Assembly: GCF_003473485.1 (NCBI RefSeq)
Contig: NC_053048.1
Coordinates: 51,271,755 to 51,335,754, forward strand
DNA length: 64,000 nucleotides
Direction: 5' to 3'
DNA from: Medicago truncatula
Lineage: Eukaryota; Streptophyta; Magnoliopsida; Fabales; Fabaceae
Shown here piece after piece: positions 37,285 through 38,690 of this stretch; the first letter of the stretch is position 1, and each line of letters starts with the position of its first letter. The notes beneath the pieces are model-generated. The model had not been told where the DNA came from and did no database searches. It worked only from the letters and a program-made list of their open reading frames with translations. A program made the position numbers and the translations under genes.

Positions 37285-38298
37285 CAAGTATTTTGACTAC
37301 CGAGATTTAAATATTGTGGAAATTCTGTCACAATATTTAGGAAAATCTCAAATTTGATGTGCGAAATAAGATCAAGTGAATATTATACCAAGGTTCTTTT
37401 CCATCGAGAACCCTGGTTAGAAACAACAAATCACCGCCATTCATGCATTAAATAAATCTCAATTATACAATATCCTACTGTTAAGTCAACACATCAAAGA
37501 GGACACAAACGTCTCCCACTTAAAACTACCACTGAATGGCACAACGGAGGAAAAATTCACTCAACAGTCTTTCTAAGCATCTTCAAATCTTGCACTGCAA
37601 GGTTATTATGTGCTTGGAGTAGCTTCTACTTTACTCTCTGTAGTTGCCTCAGCAGCATCTTGCTCTCCAGGCTTTGACACTTCTTGATCTATAATTGGCA
37701 AACACAGAAGAGTCATATGTCCAATAGCCATGTCAAGCAACTAAGAAAAAGGAAATTAAAGGGGCTGAAAATTGCAAAGAATTGATGCTATAAACTACAT
37801 GACTTCAAAATAAATCCTCTTTTCTTTAACTCCCTTACTCAAGGAGAATGCCCTCAGATTGAAATTAATAATCTCATAATATTGCGTATAAAATATGAAT
37901 TTAATCTCTAGTCTTTAGAAATATATAAATGTATATATATTAAGTTTTTTATATTTGTGAAGAAGCTCAAGAAAGTATCCATGATGAATACAAGCTGTAG
38001 AGCTACTTATTTCCACTTCCGCAACTCAAGAGCTAACCCTTAACCCTCATGTTAACAACCAACGTAACTTTAAGAACATTTAATATATCCTAAAGCTACA
38101 TTGTCATAAGTTGCATATTTCTTTAAACAGTAAGCTGCCTGTTTCTACATACAAGCATATTATATTAACATAACAAACCACAAAAAATCTAAGTATCATG
38201 CATACTATATAGTAACCAAGTATCATGTGCATGGAACAGAGAGAGAGATCAACAAAAATGAAAATGTGCATGCATACCTTCATCGTCACTCTCGTCAA
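37285..38298 (-). pseudogene. Partial duplicate of the p23 gene 3' end
   Basis: This segment closely matches 40258-41493 across the last p23 exon, the intron before it, and the final bases of exon 6. The copied last exon (37606-37688) still reads through in the p23 frame (QEVSKPGEQDAA...VEATPST, stop); relative to the full gene it lacks 15 bp and gains 3 bp, both multiples of three. The copied intron lacks an extra segment of about 135 bp that the full gene has, and a local duplication near 41047-41125. At 38298 the match stops abruptly inside exon 6 and RNF113-like sequence begins. The amino-terminal CS domain exons are absent, so this cannot make p23. Confidence 0.8.
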
Positions 38299-38690
38299 AC
38301 AAACCATCAGCGCACCCTCCTCTTTTCGGTTTCATTCCATTCTTTCTCTAATTGCCACCCGGACTTGTAATCAGTTCGGTCGTGCAAAAACTTGCATGAA
38401 TCGCCGTAGCCACAATATCCGGTCTCCTTGAAGTCTTTGCATAGGTCGGGTTGATAATCGATTCTTGATGAAACTCTAATATGAGTTGAAGGTCGGAGAG
38501 GACCGTGTGTCGACCCACCAGTTCCCTCGAGACTCGTTTCAGTCTCCAAAGTTGCTGTTGCTTTGCTATCATGTTGAACTTGAATCTCTTTTGAAGATTC
38601 AAAATGAAAGCTAAGTTTCTTGGATGCTTCATTAGGTTTAGCGGTGGAAAAGAATAACCCATTGTATTTGTAGCACCTATGGCCCAATTG
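38299..38690 (-). pseudogene. Truncated RNF113/Cwc24-like CCCH zinc-finger fragment
   Basis: Minus-strand frame resembling the middle of plant zinc finger CCCH protein 1 (RNF113A/Cwc24 family, spliceosome-associated, normally CCCH plus RING). Recognisable blocks are [45 protein letters not shown], an intact C-x8-C-x5-C-x3-H finger ([20 protein letters not shown]), then [15 protein letters not shown]. Compared with the family, the stretch between ATLETET and GGSTHGPLR is missing, the RING half is absent, and the frame stops at 38307-38309, just before the p23-derived sequence. No in-frame ATG was found at the upstream end. It is intronless, which suggests a retrocopy or captured cDNA-like piece, though I am not sure of the parent's intron content. 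Confidence 0.8.

Follow-up and report, generated by a model that had tools for sequence, protein, structure and literature searches.

The locus at which part of a p23 gene meets part of an RNF113/Cwc24-type CCCH gene, in a 64,000-nucleotide stretch of the Medicago truncatula genome (the whole stretch analysed, hereafter the window), is most probably a composite of separate DNA-level duplications, mostly pseudogenic, and not a gene. The homologies on both sides are beyond chance: three p23 pieces match in the genome at 5.5e-88 to 1.5e-191, and a tblastn comparison of the CCCH fragment with the intact RNF113 gene gives 4e-53. We propose that a second, ancient RNF113 lineage fell into decay, the loss of that gene being deduced, and that a truncated remnant of what corresponded to its exon 2 may have been duplicated, together with flanking sequence, from one place on contig C7 to another. 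Upstream of the window copy a MITE would then have inserted, and about 1 kb from the 3′ end of p23, 2 kb away, would have been copied beside the RNF113 scrap, with a few filler bases at the join such as a putative double-strand-break repair would leave. We infer this order of steps; the homologies, edges, common deletions, divergences and missing ATG behind it were observed directly. In our view the locus is unremarkable as a patchwork of gene fragments and only modestly unusual in its evolution; the preliminary description had the observation right and the origin story partly wrong.

Anatomy of the locus and its junction

The features are collected in Table 1; the seven coding exons of the parent p23 gene were placed by hand using splice signals and frame. 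Its product has a Gly-Met-rich tail and a CS domain at residues 5-81 (6.4e-12). Alignment to this parent places the end of p23 homology at 38298 (parent 41493), inside the codons for DESDDE and with 21 nt left before the donor of exon 6, which is where the preliminary description had seen the copy break off. The second edge, at 37285, corresponds to parent 40258, and the CS domain is absent from the copy, exons 1-5 and most of exon 6 being missing. Over 994 aligned sites the two differ at 33, with 16 gap events (K2P 0.034). The earlier proposal that the p23 3′ end was duplicated locally is supported. At substitution rates of 6.5e-9 or 1.08e-8 per site per year, this divergence gives an age of about 2.6 or 1.6 million years. 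Such differences show the copies to be two distinct sequences, which, with no N seen in 35500-46000, makes an assembly artefact at 38298 highly improbable, though a mis-join may still exist.

Table 1. Features of the composite locus and related places (window positions unless a contig or locus is given)
Feature	Position	Strand	Remarks
Window with CCCH/p23 composite	C7:51271755-51335754		genome searched: 429.9 Mb, 42 contigs
Partial p23 copy	37285..38298	-	exon 6 final 21 nt, intron 6, exon 7, sequence past stop
Exon 7′ coding part	37606..37688	-	in frame to ATPST stop as in parent; two in-frame indels vs parent
Exon 6′ remnant	38278..38298	-	donor GT at 38277-38276 intact
Junction filler	38299..38312	-	~14 nt, between RNF113 homology and p23 copy
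RNF113/Cwc24-type CCCH fragment	~38313..38665	-	exon 2 interior only, without ATG
Palindromic MITE-like element	38816..39183	.	terminal inverted repeats GGTTAAATTACAC
Flank common with sister	39210..39598	.	389 bp; sister C7:51493262-51493630, 77%
Parent p23 gene, ATG to end of duplicated 3′ region	40258..43248	-	CS domain, 234 aa
Parent p23 exons 1-4	43248-43244, 42739-42553, 42414-42258, 42160-42120	-	
Parent p23 exons 5-7	41777-41616, 41530-41473, 40671 onward	-	
Sister RNF113 fragment	C7:51492796-51493034		182 kb away; 91% identical to 38316-38554
Intact RNF113 gene	C7:51.671 Mb		0.36 Mb from window copy; 327-aa product
Intact RNF113 exons	L009 3933-3981, 4091-4923, 5043-5144		placed by hand
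C8 RNF113 scrap	L046 (C8:8338000-8345000), about 2892-3301		RING end and 3′ sequence, intron 2 retained

A genome search with 37285-38690 located the p23 part only at the copy and its parent (4 of 4 candidates scored). The sole further p23 relative among the 40 of 532 candidates scored is a C1 locus whose match covers the CS-domain exons; exon 7 of this paralogue (locus L045), sought for the ancestral form of exon 7, was not found by tblastn. A short repeat in p23 intron 4 (41895-42061) has 39 genome match rows at 78-88% (40 of 532 candidates scored). We discarded a head-to-tail tandem duplication of the whole p23 gene, as no far edge of the unit is visible: 39590-40258 has no match elsewhere in the window, and nothing to the right of 39598 matched elsewhere in the genome among the 40 of 436 candidates scored.

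On the other side of the filler, RNF113 homology fades at ~38313-38316 towards the p23 copy and at ~38665 at the opposite end. Bounded by the TGA at 38705-38703 and the TGA at 38309-38307, the latter within the filler, the minus-strand CCCH frame is open for 127 codons, with all indels relative to the intact gene in-frame. The finger reported beside the p23 copy is indeed intact (Pfam PF00642, 5.7e-11), and the closest solved-structure matches of the fragment are human RNF113A (1e-26) and yeast Cwc24 (5.9e-24). The frame ends where the preliminary description had it end, and the two pieces are separate, without a continuous protein; the C-terminal RING domain is missing, since p23 sequence follows the stop. 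No ATG is found in the frame back to its upstream TGA, and the upstream continuation to ~39300 holds many stops. Because the frame has no ATG, it is not a stand-alone gene, and most likely the CCCH piece does nothing. Gene-prediction programs would be apt to take a start-less open frame beside good splice sites for a gene; this one, however, looks like a relic.

The MITE-like element lies beside the gene pieces, upstream of the CCCH frame, and does not surround them. A Mutator-like affinity is presumed from the 9-bp direct repeats on its two sides, which agree in 8 of 9 positions. Its family is large, with at least 82 match rows among the 40 of 816 first-look candidates scored, most places matching on both strands. 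Beyond the p23 copy lies a minisatellite (36430-36946) with a 36-bp unit, one irregular step of 85 and ten overlapping registers.

Origin of the CCCH fragment

The preliminary description called the CCCH part an intronless, retrocopy-like RNF113 piece. It does lack introns; the retrocopy origin was set aside after comparison with the exon layout of the intact gene. Alignment to the full-length gene, as had been suggested, confines the match to its large exon 2, and since this source stretch has no intron to lose, the lack of introns is uninformative on retroposition. Inspection by eye of the 3′ edge revealed no poly-A tract. The differences from the intact gene are mainly synonymous, so most of the divergence arose under coding constraint: dN/dS is 0.066 over 99 codons, a value impossible for neutral decay of a recent copy. 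A recent processed retrocopy of the extant gene, which the missing intron had seemed to favour, is thus extremely improbable, and the balance of synonymous and nonsynonymous change is what separates a young retrocopy from an old gene’s relic.

The divergence from the intact gene is uneven along the fragment. In block 1 (36 codons) dS is 0.42 and dN 0.036, whereas in block 2 (63 codons, including the finger) dS reaches 3.4, which is saturated, and dN is 0.105; the differences in block 2 comprise 30.5 synonymous and 14.5 nonsynonymous changes, a synonymous excess with p 1.3e-10. Nucleotide differences set the blocks apart (10/108 versus 45/189, p 0.0018), as does the synonymous proportion (permutation p 0.0064), although the bootstrap dS intervals just overlap (0.14-1.03 for block 1, 0.93 upward for block 2). 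These substitution patterns are most simply explained if block 2 stems from a functional RNF113 gene that had long been separate, and if block 1 either underwent exchange with the extant RNF113 or had a different source. The divergence would then probably have accumulated in a second RNF113 gene that has since been lost.

An intact second RNF113 gene was not found in the genome by protein search (23 of 23 candidates scored). At E <= 1e-3 the RNF113 CCCH region occurs only in the intact gene, the window copy and the sister fragment (12 of 12 and 23 of 23 candidates scored). Protein-search rows at E up to 1 number 19: two each for the intact gene, the window copy and the sister, one for a RING fragment on C8, and 12 weak rows (E 3.3e-4 or worse) that resemble other genes of the RING or CCCH type. 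The protein search first suggested that the C8 fragment (C8:8341029-8341301) has no intron. Alignment showed intron 2 to be kept, which rules out an intronless copy and makes this scrap a DNA-mediated one. Parts of its RING have been lost, and a stop lies within its exon part.

The sister fragment places the window copy in time. Relative to the intact gene, alignment gives the window copy three in-frame internal deletions, of 24, 57 and 99 nt; the sister has both larger ones, whereas the sequence around the third is absent from the sister. From these common deletions it follows that the RNF113 scrap, already deleted, predates the split between window copy and sister. Judged by its match, the common flank belongs to the same older duplicated block as the RNF113 fragment. 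K2P between window and sister is 0.082 in the RNF113 part (18 differences at 235 sites) and 0.133 in the flank (42 at 346). Two frameshifts disrupt the sister’s frame: 1 nt has been inserted and 4 nt deleted. Over 48 codons window copy and sister differ by 4 synonymous and 2 nonsynonymous changes, a shortage of nonsynonymous ones with p 0.033; together with the open frame, the intact finger and the in-frame indels of the window copy, this would allow for some coding constraint even after the two had parted. Within the flank, a 69-bp repeat (39342-39410) has 37 further match rows at 83-87%, and an additional 78% flank match lies at C7:51534928-51535121 (40 of 436 candidates scored for both). 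Part of the flank is also repeated inside the sister locus (L008 4763-5131 and 5581-5718).

The p23 copy is probably younger than the split between window copy and sister, as its K2P of 0.034 falls below both of these values. Conversion by the neighbouring parent could also have kept the divergence of the p23 copy low, which would weaken this order of events. No p23 or MITE sequence from 37000-43000 has a match within 10 kb around the sister. Capture of a fresh RNF113 piece by p23 is not supported: the scrap looks older, and its sister stands 182 kb away without p23.

Possible transcripts

The preliminary description held that p23 splice sites could be reused here, and both the donor of exon 6′ and the acceptor of exon 7′, an exon whose first base is 37688, are indeed intact. 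One use of them would be a chimeric transcript that begins upstream of the CCCH piece, splices intron 6′, uses the p23 polyadenylation region and yields a CCCH peptide or a non-coding RNA. The CCCH frame is open, and the intact donor lies 29 nt past its stop, too near to trigger decay under the usual 50-nt rule for the distance from stop to junction. A transcript starting in the CCCH piece, however, cannot open its CCCH protein at an ATG, as the frame has none; this, the many stops upstream and the MITE there speak against a protein and less against a non-coding RNA. Taken together, we consider such a transcript very unlikely.

Exon 7′ might instead serve as an alternative last exon for p23. 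A read-through transcript could be spliced from 41473 (last base of exon 6) to 37688, so that exon 7 of the gene itself would be skipped along with the MITE and the CCCH scrap, and p23 would gain a slightly different C-terminus. Exon 7′ lies downstream of p23 on the same strand, its acceptor, phase, frame and stop are intact, and a 100-nt stretch past the stop (37425-37524) is identical in both p23 copies. Each of the two indels in exon 7′ has a length divisible by three, compared with 2 of 14 elsewhere in the copy; by our own arithmetic the chance of this pattern is ~0.05, and the in-frame bias is only suggestive. Such use would need read-through of the p23 polyadenylation site, and at 3% divergence intact splice sites are expected regardless, so we regard this outcome as unlikely. 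Even so, exon 7′ is the sole part with a complete set of intact signals that might still be used, and we think it a better candidate for function than the CCCH chimera. A combined reading, in which the fragment is the fossil of a lost functional second RNF113 gene and now sits within an intron of a read-through p23 isoform that uses exon 7′, appears distinctly unlikely. We retain the mostly pseudogenic composite as the preferred account.

Comparison with known systems

Among the titles and abstract openings searched, none names this locus, although it may already be in print. Pack-MULEs and Helitrons are gene-capturing plant transposable elements. As in the gene capture by plant transposable elements described in PMC13317346, pieces of several genes lie side by side here and a MITE is present, but the MITE adjoins the pieces and does not enclose them. 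For fragmented tandem, proximal and dispersed plant pseudogenes, the abstract of PMC7935947 gives retroposition a modest part and indicates double-strand-break repair. The locus is likewise fragmentary, local and joined to unrelated sequence; it differs in that two unrelated source genes meet, and according to its abstract that paper does not include Medicago. Compared with the RNF113/Cwc24 splicing factor, the CCCH finger and surrounding sequence are alike, whereas the locus lacks the RING domain and a start codon and carries large internal deletions. Compared with the p23 HSP90 co-chaperone, the exon 6 end, intron 6, exon 7 and 3′ sequence are alike, whereas the copy lacks most of exon 6 and all of exons 1-5, where the CS domain is encoded.
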